Part shown: one piece after another, positions 32,002 through 38,709 of the stretch
How the letters are laid out: the number at the start of each line of letters is the position of its first letter
Numbering within the stretch: position 1 is the stretch's first letter
Assembly (NCBI RefSeq): GCF_001907675.1
Contig: NZ_MPNT01000006.1
Location: 173,936 to 237,935 of the forward strand
Origin: Mycobacterium paraffinicum
GTDB taxonomy: Bacteria; Actinomycetota; Actinomycetes; Mycobacteriales; Mycobacteriaceae
Length of the DNA: 64,000 bases
Direction: 5' to 3'
Notes under the pieces: model-generated
The model's input: only the letters and a program-made list of their open reading frames with translations
What the model was told of the DNA's origin: nothing
Database searches by the model: none
Translations under genes and position numbers: made by a program

Positions 32002-32421
32002 CTAAGCCAATAGCGGTTGCAACACCGCCCGCAGGTCGCCGACCTTCGGCACTCCGGCGCTACGGTAGCGCTGACGGCCGTCGGCGTCGAAGATCAATGT
32101 GGTCGGCAGTGACAACACCGACAGCCGCTTGGCGGCGGCGGGATTGGCGTCGATATCGATTTCCACGTGCGACACGTCGGGAAGAGCGGCGCAGACCTGG
32201 TCGACCACGCGCCGCACCGACGCACATGGACCACACCACGCCGCGCTGAAGTGCACCACGGTCGGCCCCGTCTGTGCCAAGCCAAGGTCGGACGTGTCCG
32301 GTTGGGAATCAGGGCTAGTTTCGCGCAGCACCCCGGAGCGTCGATTGACCATCGCGCCGGCCGCCGTGGCGACAGCCAGCGCCGCGAGCAGCGCCGTCCC
32401 CGCTATGACAAGAGTGCTCAC
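32002..32421 (-). CDS. Membrane-anchored thioredoxin-like protein
   Basis: 139 residues. N-terminal membrane helix (residues 3-24), then a thioredoxin fold with active site WCGPC (~62-66) and cis-Pro in LSLPTT. The catalytic part should lie outside the cytoplasm. GTG start, ribosome-binding site GAGGA. It begins 7 bases after cysE, so it is the last gene of the cysteine operon; a disulfide reductase role in thiol balance is an inference. Confidence 0.85.
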   Translation of the reverse strand: MSTLVIAGTALLAALAVATAAGAMVNRRSGVLRETSPDSQPDTSDLGLAQTGPTVVHFSAAWCGPCASVRRVVDQVCAALPDVSHVEIDIDANPAAAKRLSVLSLPTTLIFDADGRQRYRSAGVPKVGDLRAVLQPLLA

Positions 32422-32428
32422 GAAATCC

Positions 32429-33115
32429 TCAGATGGAGAAGTCTTCGCCGTGCCATACCCCGGCCTCCGGTGGGCGGATCACCAGCTCGGACTGTTGTTG
32501 TCCGTCGTTGGCCGCCTCCAGCCGGGCTACCCGGGTGAGGAGCGACTGCAGACTGACGCCGACGAGGTCGGGCATCATCGAGTCGTCCGGGCTGCTTCGC
32601 CCGTGGCGGCTGATGACCTGTCCGGGTACCCCGGTCACCACGGCGCTCGACGGAACCTCCTTGACGACGACGGCGTTGGCCCCGATCCGGCTGTCGTCGC
32701 CGATCTTGATCGCGCCGAGCACCTTGGCGCCGGCGCCGATGATCACCCGGTCGCCGATGGTCGGGTGGCGTTTGCCAGTGTCCCGTCCGCTACCGCCGAG
32801 GGTGACGCCGTGGTAGATGGTCACGTCCTCGCCCACCTCGGCAGTCTCGCCGATCACCACGCCGGTCGCATGGTCGATGAACAGCCCCGGGCCAAGGACC
32901 GCACCCGGGTGTATCTCGACTCCGGTGAGGATGCGCAAGACCTCCGCAAACGTCCGCGCGGCGAGCCTGGCGCCGCGCTTCCATAGCCAGTGGTTGATCC
33001 GGTGGCCCCAGATCGCATGCACACCCGGATAGGCGAAGATCACCTGCAGCGTGGTCGGGCGGGCCGGGTCGCGCTCCCTGGCGGCCCGGATGTCACGTCG
33101 AATGTCCGCGAGCAT
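32429..33115 (-). CDS. cysE: Serine O-acetyltransferase
   Basis: Acetylates serine with acetyl-CoA to O-acetylserine, the first step to cysteine. 228 residues, left-handed beta-helix of hexapeptide repeats (~60-180) with the conserved HPGA and VIGETAEVG segments. The C-terminus ends in EDFSI; a terminal Ile is what docks into CysK in the cysteine synthase complex. Equivalent to Rv2335. It starts 2 bases after cysK1. Confidence 0.95.
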   Translation of the reverse strand: MLADIRRDIRAARERDPARPTTLQVIFAYPGVHAIWGHRINHWLWKRGARLAARTFAEVLRILTGVEIHPGAVLGPGLFIDHATGVVIGETAEVGEDVTIYHGVTLGGSGRDTGKRHPTIGDRVIIGAGAKVLGAIKIGDDSRIGANAVVVKEVPSSAVVTGVPGQVISRHGRSSPDDSMMPDLVGVSLQSLLTRVARLEAANDGQQQSELVIRPPEAGVWHGEDFSI

Positions 33116-33117
33116 GG

Positions 33118-34050
33118 CTAATCCGCTAGGTCGGCGAAGAGCGGGGTGCTCAGATACCGCTCACCGAAGCTCGGCAGCACCACGACGACCAGCTTGCCCG
33201 CGTTCTCCGGCCGGCGGGCCACCTGCAGCGCCGCGACCACGGCCGCGCCCGAGGAGATGCCGACCAGCAGACCCTCCTCCCGGGCCAACCGACGTGCCAT
33301 ATCCAGCGATTCTTCGTTGCCGACCGCGATGACCTCGTCTACCAGGTCCAGCTCGAGCACCGGCGGGACGAATCCGGCACCGATGCCCTGGATCGGGTGC
33401 GGCCCCTTCTGGCCGCCGGACAGGACCGGTGACGCGGCGGGCTCCACGGCCACGAATCGCGCCGACGGCTTGCGCTCCTTGATGACCTGAGCGACGCCGG
33501 TGAGAGTTCCCCCGGTGCCCACCCCGGCAACGAAGAAGTCGATCTTGCCGTCGGTGTCTCGCCACACCTCCTCAGCGGTGGTCTTGCGGTGGATCGCGGG
33601 GTTCGCGGGGTTCTCGAACTGTTGCGGGATGAAATACCGTTGGTCGTTTTTGGCCAGCTCCTCGGCTTTTGCGATGGCCCCCGCCATCCCTTCGGCCCCA
33701 GGCGTCAGGACTATTTCTGCGCCGAACGCGCGCAACAACATTCGGCGTTCGGTACTCATCGTGTCCGGCATCGTCAGCACGCACCGGTAGCCGCGCGCCG
33801 CGCACACCATCGCGAGCGCGATGCCGGTGTTTCCGCTCGTCGGCTCCAGGATGATCGTGTCGGGTTTGATGAGCCCCGCCTGCTCGGCCGCATCCAGCAT
33901 CGCGACGCCGATGCGGTCCTTCACGCTGTTGGCGGGGTTGAAGAACTCCAGCTTGGCCACGACGTCGGCGACCGCCCCCTCGGTGACCCGGTTCAGCCGG
34001 ACCAGCGGCGTGTTCCCGATCAGTTGTGTGACGTTATCTGCGATGCTCAT
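33118..34050 (-). CDS. cysK1: O-acetylserine sulfhydrylase (cysteine synthase A)
   Basis: Makes cysteine from O-acetylserine and sulfide with PLP. 310 residues; PLP lysine K44 in NSVKDR, and TSGNTGIA (71-78) binds substrate. Equivalent to Rv2334. It sits 9 bases downstream of the thioester-like gene and 2 bases upstream of cysE, so its expression should follow the poly-Cys attenuator at the head of the operon. Confidence 0.96.
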
Positions 34051-34059
34051 CTGTCTTCC

Positions 34060-35337
34060 TCAGGCGATGTCGGTACATGACTCGTCGGTCTGCCAGCTGA
34101 TGTCGAATTCGATGGCCACGGCCGTCGGCACGGTCAGGGCAATGGGCGTGAATCCATGTCCTGCCCCCTCTAACGCGATTCCGGTCAGCACCCTTCCGGT
34201 GAGGATTTCCGGTGTTGTCGCGGTGACCGTCGTTGTGGACGTACCCGGTGCGGGCCGCAGGTAAAAGTCCGTGCCCGCCTGCACAGTGCCGACGACCGTC
34301 TCGCCGTCGGAGCCGACGAGTTCGTGTCCGTCACCGACGTTGAGCGTCAACGGGATTGGCACTTGAAACGGTCCTATGAGCTCCGAATTGGCGGTCGCTT
34401 CGGTATCGATTAGTTGTGGTTCCACCGTATCGCTCGAGGCTTTGCGCGCCCCAGTGATCAGATAATTGTAGAGGTGCACAATTCGATCGGCATTGCGGTA
34501 GTGGCGGGCGCCGGTCAGCCAGAAGCGAACATGGTCGATGGTCGGATTGGCGGCGTCGGTCGTCGCGATCAGTCGGTAATGGCGATAGCCACGCCCGCCG
34601 CTGCCGTGGCTGCTGGCCGACAGTGTGCTGCCCACTCCGAGCGTGCGTCGATGACGGCCCTTGCCCGCGTCCACCGTCAGCTGGGAACGCGAAATGTCTT
34701 GCCATGCAATGCCGTCGGTCGACTTTTGGAGCTTCAGGCCGACGGCGGCGTCGGAGTCGACCCACACCGAGTAACCACCGAGTTGCGGTTCGCCGTCGAA
34801 TTCGAAGCTCATCACGCGTCCGGCCGCTCGGCGCACCTTGACGGGTACGTTGAGGGGCCGAGTGTCCAGGGTCAAACCGTTGGTGAAATGCCAGACCGCG
34901 GCCTGGGTGGCGGCGATCGCCTCGTGTTCGGTGATGTGGGCCCGCCCCAGGGGGGTGCCCGCGGCGCGCAGTTGTTCGCTCAGTTCGGCCGTCGTGCGCA
35001 TCGGGAAGGAGTTGCGCAGGATCCAGTCGACCTCGGCCTCGTGGTTGCGGCTGCGCAGGTGGGGTAGCGCCGACCAGCTGTCCAAGCGGTATCGGGATGG
35101 CTCATGAGGCGCGATGCCGAAGAAGTCCAAGGAATACGCGTGCAGGTTGGGATTGACCCTGATCAGGTCGGTTCGGGCCGAGCTGCCGTCGGCGAACACG
35201 ACCGTGTCCACGGTATGGGAGTAGGTGCCCCCGCGGTAGCGCGTCATCCGCGCGACTTCGGTTGCCGGCTTGACGAGAACCCGGTGGCGGGTCTCCACCG
35301 GCGCGGAGGCGCGGGTGGGTAGTGACATCACTGTCAT
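34060..35337 (-). CDS. TQXA/thioester-domain-like protein, first gene of the cysteine operon
   Basis: 425 residues. Residues ~20-150 resemble the TQXA (thioester) domain of Gram-positive surface adhesins, including VDWILRNSFP and ATQAAVW. In the classic domain the Gln of TQ forms a thioester with a Cys in a YCID-like segment; here that segment reads AYSLD, so the Cys is Ser. There is no signal peptide and no sorting signal. Residues ~190-280 may be a beta-sandwich. Start ATG 35337 follows AGGAAG by 10 bases; the frame is open to 35538, but that part overlaps the poly-Cys uORF. Function unknown. Confidence 0.72.
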   Translation of the reverse strand: MTVMSLPTRASAPVETRHRVLVKPATEVARMTRYRGGTYSHTVDTVVFADGSSARTDLIRVNPNLHAYSLDFFGIAPHEPSRYRLDSWSALPHLRSRNHEAEVDWILRNSFPMRTTAELSEQLRAAGTPLGRAHITEHEAIAATQAAVWHFTNGLTLDTRPLNVPVKVRRAAGRVMSFEFDGEPQLGGYSVWVDSDAAVGLKLQKSTDGIAWQDISRSQLTVDAGKGRHRRTLGVGSTLSASSHGSGGRGYRHYRLIATTDAANPTIDHVRFWLTGARHYRNADRIVHLYNYLITGARKASSDTVEPQLIDTEATANSELIGPFQVPIPLTLNVGDGHELVGSDGETVVGTVQAGTDFYLRPAPGTSTTTVTATTPEILTGRVLTGIALEGAGHGFTPIALTVPTAVAIEFDISWQTDESCTDIA

Positions 35338-35458
35338 GGGTGGTTGTCTTCCTGAAAGAATCTGCTGGCGAACGCGCGCCTGGCGACCGCGGGGCGGTGG
35401 TAGCCCGATCCAAGGGCAGGGCGCGGGATTTCTACTGCGTCTTAAGGGCGTCAGGAAA
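35338..35458 (-). promoter_or_regulatory. Attenuator leader: anti-SD directly after poly-Cys uORF, SD before the operon
   Basis: The mRNA segment TTTCCTGA (35458-35451), immediately after the uORF stop, can pair with TCAGGAAG (35355-35348), which holds the Shine-Dalgarno of the next gene: seven Watson-Crick pairs plus one G-U. A nested helix GGCGCG/CGCGCC (35420-35425 with 35375-35380) would bring them together. A ribosome paused on the Cys codons would cover the first segment and leave the ribosome-binding site free. Confidence 0.7.
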
Positions 35459-35530
35459 TCAACAACAGCGACAACAACAGCAGGCGGCGATGCGCGAAGG
35501 AACGAAGCGCGGCTGAACGGCCTGTTGCAT
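35459..35530 (-). CDS. Leaderless poly-cysteine regulatory uORF
   Basis: A 23-codon ORF encoding MQQAVQPRFVPSRIAA followed by CCCCRCC and TGA (35461-35459): six Cys in the last seven codons. The ATG at 35530 is six bases downstream of a TATAGT -10, so the transcript should start on the A of ATG. Leaderless poly-Cys small ORFs are known cysteine-sensing attenuators in M. smegmatis and M. tuberculosis. Here one precedes cysK1-cysE, the most direct target for such a sensor. The peptide itself is probably not the functional product. Confidence 0.88.
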   Translation of the reverse strand: MQQAVQPRFVPSRIAACCCCRCC

Positions 35531-35536
35531 GGCCCC

Positions 35537-35566
35537 ACTATAGGCCCAGACGAAGATCACTGTCAG
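35537..35566 (-). promoter_or_regulatory. Promoter of the cysteine operon
   Basis: On the minus strand: CTGACA (35566-35561; five of six matches to TTGACA), an 18-base spacer, and TATAGT (35542-35537). The expected start is 35530, the first base of the uORF. Confidence 0.75.
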
Positions 35567-35612
35567 ATTGCGGGTGCTTTACGGCCCTTTAATTCAGCAC
35601 GGGAGTAATGCT

Positions 35613-35640
35613 TTGCGCCGTCCCCGGAGTCCCCTAGGCT
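35613..35640 (+). promoter_or_regulatory. Putative promoter of the encapsulin operon
   Basis: TTGCGC (35613-35618), 16 bases, TAGGCT (35635-35640). Gives a start near 35647 and a ~77-base leader. It is divergent from the cysteine-operon promoter about 50 bases away. No poly-Cys ORF was seen on this side. Confidence 0.4.
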
Positions 35641-35723
35641 CGGCGCGCGAACCTGGTCACAGCGGGTGATCATGGACCTGCCGCACCACGCTGCAACGCT
35701 TGATCGAGCATGGAAGGACCACG

Positions 35724-36647
35724 ATGACGTCGGCTCAAAACGAGTCTCAGGCACTCGGCGACCTCGCAGCTAGGCAGCTTGCCAACGCGACGAAGACCGT
35801 CCCCCAGCTTTCCACCATCACGCCCCGCTGGTTGCTGCACCTGCTCAGCTGGGTGCCGGTGGAAGCGGGCCTGTATCGGGTGAACCGGGTGGTCAACCCG
35901 GAGGGCGTCGCGATCAAGGCCGAAGCGGGTGCGGGCACCGAAGAACCGCTGCCGGAGACCTACGTCGACTACGAGACCAGCCCGCGCGAATACACGCTGC
36001 GGAGCATCTCGACCCTCGTTGACATCCACACTCGCGTCTCCGACCTGTACTCGAGTCCCCACGACCAGATCGCGCAGCAGCTGCGGCTGACCATCGAGAC
36101 GATCAAGGAGCGCCAGGAGTTCGAGTTGGTCAACAGCCCCGAGTACGGGCTGCTGGCCCAGGCGACTCCGGAGCAGACCATCCAGACCCTGGCGGGCGCT
36201 CCGGCGCCCGACGACCTGGACGCGCTGATCACCAAGGTGTGGAAGACGCCCAGCTTCTTCCTGACCCACCCGCTGGGGATCGCCGCGTTCGGCCGCGAGG
36301 CCACCTACCGTGGTGTGCCACCGCCGGTGGTCAGCCTGTTCGGCGCGCAGTTCATCACCTGGCGCGGCATCCCCCTGATCCCATCGGACAAGGTGCCGGT
36401 GGAAGACGGCAAGACCAAGTTCATCCTGGTGCGCACCGGGGAGGAACGCCAAGGCGTGGTCGGCCTGTTCCAGCCGGGCCTGGTCGGCGAGCAGGCGCCA
36501 GGGCTGTCGGTGCGATTCACCGGCATCAACCAGTCGGCAATCGCGACCTACCTGGTGACCCTCTACACCTCCCTGGCCGTGCTTACCGACGACGCGCTCG
36601 CCGTGCTGGACGATGTCGCCGTGGACCAGTTCCATGAGTACAAGTGA
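35724..36647 (+). CDS. Family 2A encapsulin shell protein (MMP-I)
   Basis: 307 residues, the length of the mycobacterial major membrane protein I (MMP-I), now known as a family 2A encapsulin with the HK97 capsid fold. It self-assembles into a shell around a cysteine desulfurase. Recognised from TPRWLLHLLSWVPVEAGLYR, YVDYETSPREYTLRSIST and FHEYK at the end. Start ATG 35724 after GGAAGGA; the frame is open slightly upstream without a ribosome-binding site. Its last 14 bases overlap the cargo gene, as expected for co-assembled partners. Divergent from the cysteine-synthesis operon. Confidence 0.93.
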   Translation: MTSAQNESQALGDLAARQLANATKTVPQLSTITPRWLLHLLSWVPVEAGLYRVNRVVNPEGVAIKAEAGAGTEEPLPETYVDYETSPREYTLRSISTLVDIHTRVSDLYSSPHDQIAQQLRLTIETIKERQEFELVNSPEYGLLAQATPEQTIQTLAGAPAPDDLDALITKVWKTPSFFLTHPLGIAAFGREATYRGVPPPVVSLFGAQFITWRGIPLIPSDKVPVEDGKTKFILVRTGEERQGVVGLFQPGLVGEQAPGLSVRFTGINQSAIATYLVTLYTSLAVLTDDALAVLDDVAVDQFHEYK

Positions 36648-38709
36648 GTACCGAGCGGTAGACGCGGAAAGCGACCTGCCCATCAGCGCCGCGGAGCTCG
36701 CCGCGCTGGCCACCCAGCTGTATGCCGCCAGCATCCGGCCGGGCCCGGACAGTCCCCCTCAGTCGGTGCCGGTCGCGCCGCGTGGCAGCGTGCCGGACAC
36801 GACTGCTGCTACATCGGCTGGGCAGACCGCGGTGGGCACCGCAGACGTTTACCCAACACCGGCGCCAGCGCTCGCTGTCACTGATACCTACGTGCCGGCC
36901 CCGACGTCCTACCAGCTCGAGCCGCCGCCGCAGACGGTGCCGGTTGCCCCGCGGGGCAATGCGCCCGACACCACCGCCGGCGCGTCAGCGGGGCAGGCGG
37001 CGGCGGGCGTCGCGGACTTGTATCCCGCGCCGGTGCCGGCACTGGGTCTCACGGACATTTATCTGCCAGCCCCAACCTCCCGCGAACCCGAAGCACCCCC
37101 GCAGACGGTGCCGGTGGCTCCCCGCGGCAACGTTCCCGGCACTACGGCCGCGCCGTCGGCCGGTATCGCCACGGGTGGCGTCGCGGAGCCGTACCTGCCC
37201 ACCGGTGATCTCAGCTCCTTCGCCGTGCCGACCCATGGGATCGTGCCGACGGTGCCAGGCGTGCTGGCCGGCTCCGCGCCCACCAGCCCCGTCGGTCACC
37301 AGACTTCGACCGCGTCCGCGCCATACGCGGCGCCGTTCGCGTTGCCCGAGGTGCCGTCGGTCGGCGATCGGCGCTGGTCGCATGCGGCACCCGCGACACC
37401 GAACACGCCGGCCGGCGACGAGCGCGACTACTACTTCCTCAACGCTGCGGAGACGGTGCCACGGCTGCCTGATGAGCACGAGGTATTCGACGTCAACGCG
37501 ATCCGGGCGGATTTCCCGATCCTGAAGGAAGTCGTCAACGGAAAGCCGTTGATCTGGTTCGACAACGCGGCGACCACCCAGAAGCCACAGGTGGTGATCG
37601 ACCGGCTGTCACACTTCTACGCCCACGAGAATTCCAACATTCACCGCGCGGCACACGAATTGGCGGCCCGGGCCACCGACGCGTACGAAGAGGCCCGCGA
37701 CACCGTGGCCGATTTCATCGGCGCGCCAAGCTCCGAAAACGTCGTGTTCGTCCGTGGCACCACCGAAGCCATCAACTTGGTGGCGCACGCGTGGGGCGGC
37801 AAGCACCTACAACCAGGTGACGAGATCGTCATCACCCATCTCGAGCACCACGCGAACATCGTTCCCTGGCAACTCGTCTCGCAGAAGACCGGAGCGATCC
37901 TGAAGGTTGCGCCGATCGACGATGCCGGCAACCTATTGCTGAGCGAATTCGAGGAGCTGCTCGGTCCTAGGACGAAACTGGTGGCCGCCAGTCAGGTGTC
38001 CAATGCGCTGGGCACGGTGGTCCCGGTGGACAAGATCGTGGAATTGGGTCATCGCTATGGGGCACGGGTGCTGATCGACGCCGCCCAATCGATTCAACAC
38101 GTGCCCGTTGATGTTGCCGAGCTGGGCGCCGATTTCCTGGTGTTCTCGGGACATAAAATTTACGGCCCCACCGGAATTGGCGCGCTCTACGGTACGGAGG
38201 AGGCGCTGACGGAGACGCCGCCGTGGCAGGGCGGCGGGCACATGATCGCCGACGTGACGATCGAACGCTCGCTATATCAGGGGCCGCCGACCAAGTTCGA
38301 GGCCGGCACCGGCAACATCGCCGACGCGGTCGGGCTGACCGAGGCGCTGCGCTACGTGCAGCGGTTGGGCATCGAACGCATCGCGGCCTACGAGCACTCG
38401 TTGCTGGAGTACGCGACGCCGCGCCTCGCCGACATTCCCGGCGTCCGGTTGGTGGGCACCGCGACCGAGAAGGCCAGCGTGCTGTCCTTCGTGCTCGCGG
38501 GACACGAGCCGCTCGAAGTGGGTAAGGCGCTCAACGCCGAAGGCATCGCGGTCCGCGCCGGGCATCACTGCGCGCAGCCCGCGCTCCGGCGGCTGGGGCT
38601 GGAGGCCACCGTTCGCCCGTCGTTCGCGTTCTACAACACGTTCGAGGAGATCGACGTGTTCCTCCGCGCGGTGCGCAGGATCGCCGAGGGCGGCACCAAC
38701 GTCGGCTGA
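36634..38709 (+). CDS. Encapsulin cargo cysteine desulfurase with long N-terminal arm
   Basis: 691 residues. The C-terminal ~400 are a SufS-type PLP cysteine desulfurase: PLP lysine in SGHKIYGPTG, catalytic Cys in RAGHHCAQPAL, and THLEHHANIVPW. It converts cysteine to alanine plus enzyme-bound persulfide. The first ~280 residues are disordered, Pro/Ala/Thr-rich, and act in this family as the encapsulin-targeting arm; a 57-residue unit with VPVAPRG(N/S) is repeated three times. Start is ATG 36634 inside the shell gene (14-base overlap). Confidence 0.93.
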   Translation: MSTSEYRAVDAESDLPISAAELAALATQLYAASIRPGPDSPPQSVPVAPRGSVPDTTAATSAGQTAVGTADVYPTPAPALAVTDTYVPAPTSYQLEPPPQTVPVAPRGNAPDTTAGASAGQAAAGVADLYPAPVPALGLTDIYLPAPTSREPEAPPQTVPVAPRGNVPGTTAAPSAGIATGGVAEPYLPTGDLSSFAVPTHGIVPTVPGVLAGSAPTSPVGHQTSTASAPYAAPFALPEVPSVGDRRWSHAAPATPNTPAGDERDYYFLNAAETVPRLPDEHEVFDVNAIRADFPILKEVVNGKPLIWFDNAATTQKPQVVIDRLSHFYAHENSNIHRAAHELAARATDAYEEARDTVADFIGAPSSENVVFVRGTTEAINLVAHAWGGKHLQPGDEIVITHLEHHANIVPWQLVSQKTGAILKVAPIDDAGNLLLSEFEELLGPRTKLVAASQVSNALGTVVPVDKIVELGHRYGARVLIDAAQSIQHVPVDVAELGADFLVFSGHKIYGPTGIGALYGTEEALTETPPWQGGGHMIADVTIERSLYQGPPTKFEAGTGNIADAVGLTEALRYVQRLGIERIAAYEHSLLEYATPRLADIPGVRLVGTATEKASVLSFVLAGHEPLEVGKALNAEGIAVRAGHHCAQPALRRLGLEATVRPSFAFYNTFEEIDVFLRAVRRIAEGGTNVG
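36748..37260 (+). repeat. 171-bp in-frame repeat (x3) in the cargo arm
   Basis: Units start at 36748, 36919 and 37090, exactly 171 bases (57 codons) apart. Each begins PPQ(S/T)VPVAPRG and has an Ala/Thr-rich part, then PAP-rich text; units 1 and 2 are most alike, unit 3 diverges in its second half. Confidence 0.85.

Follow-up and report, generated by a model that had tools for sequence, protein, structure and literature searches.

The window, by which the whole analysed stretch of 64 kb is meant, carries on its minus strand a conserved leader followed by a TED-like gene, cysK, cysE and a thioredoxin-like gene, while a Family 2A encapsulin locus, with both the shell and the cargo gene above the curated cut-offs, lies divergently on the plus strand. 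The features are as follows:

35537..35566, minus strand: promoter CTGACA-18-TATAGT, read directly from the sequence (CTGACA 35566-35561, TATAGT 35542-35537)
35459..35530, minus strand: conserved, putatively leaderless poly-Cys uORF MQQAVQPRFVPSRIAACCCCRCC, 23 codons, ATG at 35530, stop TGA 35461-35459
35462..35482, minus strand: tract of Cys codons, CCCCRCC, at the end of the uORF
35451..35466, minus strand: anti-SD strand, with the core TTTCCTGA (35458-35451) directly behind the uORF stop
GTTG 35463-35460 (within the last Cys codon and the stop), plus GT 35466-35465 in the preceding codon, minus strand: 5' extension of the anti-SD
35340..35355, minus strand: SD strand, partner of the anti-SD strand, composed of TCAGGAAG (35355-35348), A, CAAC (35346-35343), C and AC (35341-35340)
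34060..35337, minus strand: TED-like gene (PF08341, TIGR03934), putative first client of the masked SD
33118..34050, minus strand: cysK, starting 9 bases behind the TED stop
32429..33115, minus strand: cysE
32002..32421, minus strand: thioredoxin-like gene with a GTG start
35700..36647, plus strand: divergent Family 2A encapsulin shell gene (NF041162, 496.7 bits, cut-off 380)
36613..38709, plus strand: encapsulin cargo cysteine desulfurase gene (NF041166, 836.5 bits, cut-off 800)

Within 35300-35720 the promoter is the sole match of the sigma-70 type, against a mean of 0.1 for shuffled sequence, and six bases separate TATAGT from the uORF ATG on the minus strand; judging by this -10 spacing, the ATG would form the 5' end of the transcript. 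The coordinates, the promoter and the 23-codon ORF ending in CCCCRCC given in an earlier note on this DNA were all exact, base for base, on the minus strand. That note also had the eight bases behind the stop paired with the SD; TTTCCTGA is complementary to TCAGGAAG, with one end pair being G-U, but the pairing is longer than described and takes in the stop and the last Cys codons, since the GTTG of the uORF pairs with the CAAC spacer behind the SD. The gene behind this SD starts at 35337 (minus strand), 121 bases from the uORF stop, a distance that ranges from 89 to 132 over 70 leaders. No intrinsic terminator (a hairpin with a T run) was found in the window's leader, which lacks the mark of a transcription attenuator of the intrinsic-terminator type, and no Rfam match to this leader was obtained up to E 1.

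Conservation of the leader was followed through both the TED protein and CysK. A genome scan with the TED protein yielded 16 loci, their titles being Mycobacterium or Mycolicibacterium; judged by eye, the poly-Cys leader is present in every one, although L014 shows the leader's end only. The CysK search covered 248 genomes drawn as belonging to the genus of a relative, 133 of which had a match at E 1e-120 or better; upstream regions were fetched for 79 of the 86 rows with at least 80% identity, the remainder being four genomes already covered by L001, L002, L003 and L005, together with G053, G112 and G154, which were left out. The leaderless-type poly-Cys uORF is present in 68 of these 79 regions (42 before the TED gene and 26 close before cysK without TED), and it thus precedes a cysteine-metabolism operon in a conserved manner, as in the polycysteine attenuator class. 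It was absent from the other 11 upstream regions, three of which (L056, L080 and L086) belong to genomes, G161, G189 and G215, that have TED and the uORF elsewhere (L247, L244 and L254). The gap between the -10 element and the ATG is 6 or 7 bases in 69 leaders, those of the window and of 68 relatives, although the search admitted gaps from 5 to 8, and the uORF stop is TGA in all 70 leaders having a TED start or its remnant. L028 and L029, duplicates of L008 and L007, had been removed from the leader set, and nine of the 26 no-TED loci fall outside it, as no TED start was found in them by the rule used.

Among more distant relatives, 42 full-length TED rows had 50-57% identity; of the 30 that were examined, every one had a uORF upstream in a search that admitted GTG as a start and -10 gaps from 4 to 9. 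The run of Cys codons at the uORF C-terminus is present in near and distant leaders alike. The earlier note had expected the Cys codons and the complementary segments to be kept in close relatives, and this expectation was borne out by the conserved uORF, the stop-adjacent anti-SD, the SD extension and the CAAC spacer. In one relative genome, G005, the 63 matches to four TGY codons fell into 58 loci, among which no other poly-Cys leaderless uORF was found, the scan being insensitive, since G005's own cysK leader lacks four consecutive Cys.

Pairing at the eight anti-SD positions is mostly as expected over the 70 near leaders. The duplex between the uORF tail plus nine bases and the SD region had an energy of -14.8 kcal/mol, against -10.6 kcal/mol with the SD core kept and the flanks shuffled, and this test gave p < 0.05 in 33 of the 70 leaders. 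Shuffling the eight post-stop bases raised the predicted SD openness from 0.19 to 0.40, with the native value being lower in 42 of the 50 leaders (out of 70) that were usable. The CAAC extension formed 5.47 of 7 pairs versus 4.79 for base-shuffled spacers, and no excess was seen against spacers dealt among the leaders (5.452 against 5.452); it is conserved and does not covary. Departures from the common pattern include a C-A mismatch in the helix of L054 and L093, loss of the helix in L066 and loss of its far end in five leaders of one clade. In seven leaders (L076, L081-L085 and L089), a Ser TCC at codon -2 creates a second TTCCTG, the anti-SD core, inside the uORF.

The check on covariation of the eight-base helix called for by the earlier note was answered in part. 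Pair 4 switches between C-G (59 leaders) and T-A (32), with T-G in four and a mismatch in three, over 98 leaders obtained by adding 28 distant ones; L254 and L257, not alignable to the helix, are excluded from the pair counts. The independent events are few, however, and the statistics are weak. When SDs were dealt anew within the near set, 191 of 232 pairs were observed versus 188.4, and 711 of 5000 rounds reached the observed number, which is not significant; with the distant set included, the figures were 248 of 304 pairs versus 243.0, reached in 204 of 5000 rounds with G-U allowed and in 148 of 5000 with Watson-Crick pairs alone. On the CysK tree, from which L094 is absent because a contig end cuts its locus, four of six independent contrasts covary, two show no difference and none opposes (p 0.125); just two contrasts on the TED tree are supported (p 0.5). 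With shuffle and tree counts this weak, covariation is not claimed here as strong proof of the helix.

In silico, RNA structure masks the downstream ribosome-binding site, and the position of the ribosome was considered with a footprint model assuming a hard edge 14 bases from the first base of the A-site. In the folding model of the window, the helix had a probability of 0.97 in the ribosome-free leader, kept at least 0.94 while the A-site stood anywhere from codon -8 to codon -4, and was gone from codon -3; the openness of the SD rose from 0.01 in the free leader to 0.19 with the A-site at codon -4 and to 0.52 with it at codon -3. Averaged over the 70 leaders, the opening was gradual from about codon -6 (0.18 free, 0.30 at codon -6, 0.39 at -4 and 0.46 at -3), and over the 28 distant leaders it went from 0.16 to 0.50 at codon -3, rising from about codon -5. 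The helix was predicted with a probability above 0.5 in just 40 of the 70 near leaders.

The claim that a ribosome stalled on the Cys codons frees the SD fits conservation, folding and some compensatory change, but not a stall at the first Cys codon, where the ribosome of the footprint model does not reach the anti-SD, the window's SD being fully open from codon -3 on. Since the models place the opening late in the tract, the stop-adjacent codons should matter most; five near leaders in which the first tract Cys stands at -3 (L043, L045, L060, L065 and L066, the last without the helix) are consistent with this. A ribosome at the stop codon also covers the anti-SD on every pass, so that the switch must work by dwell time.

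Codon choice sets the tract apart from the remainder of the uORF. The Cys codons of the tract in the 70 near leaders are TGT in 317 cases and TGC in 74, whereas the N-terminal Cys codons of the same uORFs show the reverse preference (6 TGT to 31 TGC); the tracts of the 30 distant leaders gave 114 TGT to 25 TGC. Pairing may explain the preference for TGT near the stop.

Taken with the operon structure described below, these data make it probable, in our judgement, that the leader attenuates translation and belongs to the kind built on a polycysteine leaderless uORF, in which the SD of the TED-like gene, or of its remnant, would be masked and its translation coupled to cysK. The case is built from sequence, conservation, in-silico folding, co-occurrence and ORF overlap, from which we infer the stalling and the response to cysteine. 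The transcript would start on the uORF ATG, and the last Cys codons, the stop and the next eight bases would together make up one side of an extended helix, the other side being the SD and spacer of the following gene. With cysteine plentiful, ribosomes would pass fast and the helix would re-form, masking the SD; with cysteine scarce, ribosomes would dwell on the Cys codons, and an A-site within about three codons of the stop would preclude the helix and leave the SD open. The open SD would start the TED-like gene or the short remnant, with translation coupled to cysK.

Rho-dependent transcription attenuation, in which a ribosome stalled on the uORF would keep Rho off the leader and pairing of the anti-SD would be secondary, was proposed for such leaders in 2005, as what its authors call a rather weak prediction (PMC1262725), and it agrees with the lack of an intrinsic terminator in the window's leader; nevertheless, as it predicts neither the stop-adjacent SD complement, nor the extended CAAC pairing, nor the change from C-G to T-A, we regard it as unlikely. 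Far less probable still is a uORF that has no RNA switch to sense cysteine and only hands its ribosomes on to the following gene, through coupling or reinitiation. Small leaderless ORFs with coupling to the genes behind them are described as frequent in mycobacteria (PMC4633059), but the stop-to-start distance given above is long for reinitiation in the window and throughout the 70 leaders, and the TGT-rich Cys tract beside the anti-SD would go unexplained. Least probable is a two-hairpin switch in which the anti-SD would pair by turns with the SD and with a GAAATC-like segment further downstream, a candidate partner that was dropped because, despite a hairpin drawn by RNAalifold in two subgroups and a hairpin probability above 0.5 in 11 of the 70 free leaders, it paired no better than shuffled segments (median p 0.42, 1 of 70 below 0.05) and had a hairpin probability of 0.02 in the window.

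The earlier note had the sensor governing the cysteine synthase genes directly, a reading that needs correcting, as the SD masked by the helix belongs to the TED-like gene, and cysK-cysE would be reached via coupling. The TED stop and the cysK start overlap by four bases in 21 of 41 TED loci, the window included among the 41, where the two genes are separated by the 9-base gap. Seventeen of the 26 no-TED loci (L017-L020, L034, L037, L038, L042-L045, L047, L051, L058, L066, L072 and L078) retain the SD and the TED start, from which a remnant ORF of just 18-139 residues runs; in 14 cases this ORF overlaps cysK by four bases, and the other three end 0, 9 and 39 bases before it. For nine loci the distance from the stop to cysK came out as -14, which may merely reflect how the start was chosen. 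Such a four-base overlap is expected if coupling to cysK was kept, and the remnant ORF is likely, from its position and overlap, to act as a relay keeping the attenuator's hold on cysK.

The TED/no-TED state changed at least 11 times on the CysK tree, with at least nine changes of the no-TED label being forced by well-supported branches. This tree gives no direction for the changes; losses of TED are inferred because of the remnants and the distant TED loci. No cysK was present downstream of the distant TED genes in any of 30 loci, within up to 1.5 kb, and the raw downstream ORFs of six such loci had no evident gene in common by eye. In L009 (M. lepraemurium, G006), the CysK matches, of about 90 and 84% identity, form two pieces far apart, and the operon looks broken.

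The TED-like protein of the window has 425 residues and was recognised by PF08341 (38.9 bits, cut-off 22) and TIGR03934 (56.7 bits, cut-off 30.4). Across 27 aligned sequences neither Gln145 nor Ser69 varies, and the whole of Ser69-Leu70-Asp71 (35125-35133 in the window) is likewise constant. Ser69 stands at what we take to be the position where a thioester Cys might be expected; the single Cys of the protein lies near the C-terminus. The AlphaFold model had a mean pLDDT of 58.7, with the N-terminus unresolved and pLDDT below 40 around Ser69, and Foldseek with this model returned weak, mixed matches, several of them being carbohydrate-binding-type modules. No solved structural relative of the protein was found by sequence.

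A divergent encapsulin gene was present at all 42 TED loci and, within the fetched stretch, at none of the 26 no-TED loci. Genome-wide, no encapsulin was found in any of the 26 no-TED genomes, and TED matched in one of them (G238), as a C-terminal piece; the control search recovered encapsulin in all 42 TED genomes, in pieces in G082 and G111. Over the 248 genomes at E 1e-20, both proteins were present in 88, encapsulin only in none, TED only in six and neither in 154. Four of the TED-only genomes (G076, G095, G145 and G238) have just pieces of TED, G189 has two short encapsulin matches, one of them at a contig end, and in G245 a full TED is accompanied by an encapsulin match of 39 residues. 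The encapsulin gene of G111 (L050) is a fragment with a stop, and that of G082 (L054) consists of two overlapping pieces.

The leader lies between TED and encapsulin and was retained, and their losses would therefore have taken separate deletions, which argues for a functional tie rather than a single physical loss. The TED gene would be the ancestral client of the leader and the partner of the divergent Family 2A encapsulin, and where TED and encapsulin are missing, the remnant ORF would often keep the relay to cysK. The case appears evenly poised for the fuller proposal that the TED-like protein is a dedicated mycobacterial partner of the Family 2A encapsulin, made at low cysteine via an attenuator ancestral to TED, and that loss of the capsule led to TED being cut down to a relay ORF that kept the attenuator over cysK.

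The polycysteine attenuator mechanism has reportedly been shown in M. smegmatis by Canestrari et al. 2020, and stalled ribosomes are said there to counter a structure masking the downstream ribosome-binding site. Those attenuators consist of a short leaderless ORF that carries a run of Cys and stands ahead of operons for cysteine metabolism, an arrangement that the present leader would share; neither a link between TED and encapsulin nor a relay by remnant ORFs appears in the available part of the text citing them.

Seliverstov et al. 2005 had already described leader peptides carrying runs of Cys ahead of the cys operons of mycobacteria; they noted the extra gene MAP2122/ML0840, found no conserved terminator hairpin and considered the mode of regulation unknown (PMC1262725). 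MAP2122/ML0840 is equated here with the TED-like gene, since the encapsulin shell is MAP2121c (PMC8049743). Their leaders precede the same kind of operon; the present analysis adds the helix of the anti-SD, the variation of that helix and the link of this gene to the encapsulin. The LEU element before leuA in Actinobacteria, presented in the same accessible text (PMC1262725) as a stem of the leader codon run and the SD with a pseudoknot, resembles the present leader in its codon run/SD stem and differs in serving leucine and having a pseudoknot, while the helix found here is centred on post-stop bases.

From what is accessible of the respective papers, Cys-rich leaderless uORFs occur at cysA2, Rv0485 and nirA (Shell et al. 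2015, PMC4633059), with the architecture proposed here and different operons; six Cys-rich regulatory sORFs were predicted in M. tuberculosis (Smith et al. 2022, PMC9094748); and M. tuberculosis leaders with Cys-codon uORFs, the genes being unnamed in the legend, are shown in a 2026 paper (PMC13236596). The Family 2A encapsulin with cysteine desulfurase, for which serine O-acetyltransferase is an enriched accessory gene in the available portions of PMC8049743 and PMC8346489, is the counterpart of the window's divergent genes at 35700-38709; the words "thioester" and "TQXA" gave no hit in the main text of either paper. Neither the leader's anti-SD nor the TED-encapsulin link was found in the accessible parts of PMC9094748, PMC4633059, PMC13236596, PMC9031893, PMC11133741, PMC9386245, PMC8049743, PMC8346489 and PMC1262725, a comparison outside which the likeliest source, Canestrari 2020, lies.

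The attenuator class and the leader peptides at such operons are thus already in print, and the conserved leader is very probably a cysteine attenuator of this known kind with a longer helix and a different first client. An RNA mechanism is hereby proposed for leaders of this sort, which had none attached to them when they were noted in 2005. The relay ORFs suggest the idea that short ORFs may preserve translational coupling after deletion of a gene. The tie between TED and encapsulin is the most interesting result of this analysis, as it points to an RNA gauge of cysteine that may be wired, through an uncharacterised TED-like protein, to a sulfur-handling nanocompartment.
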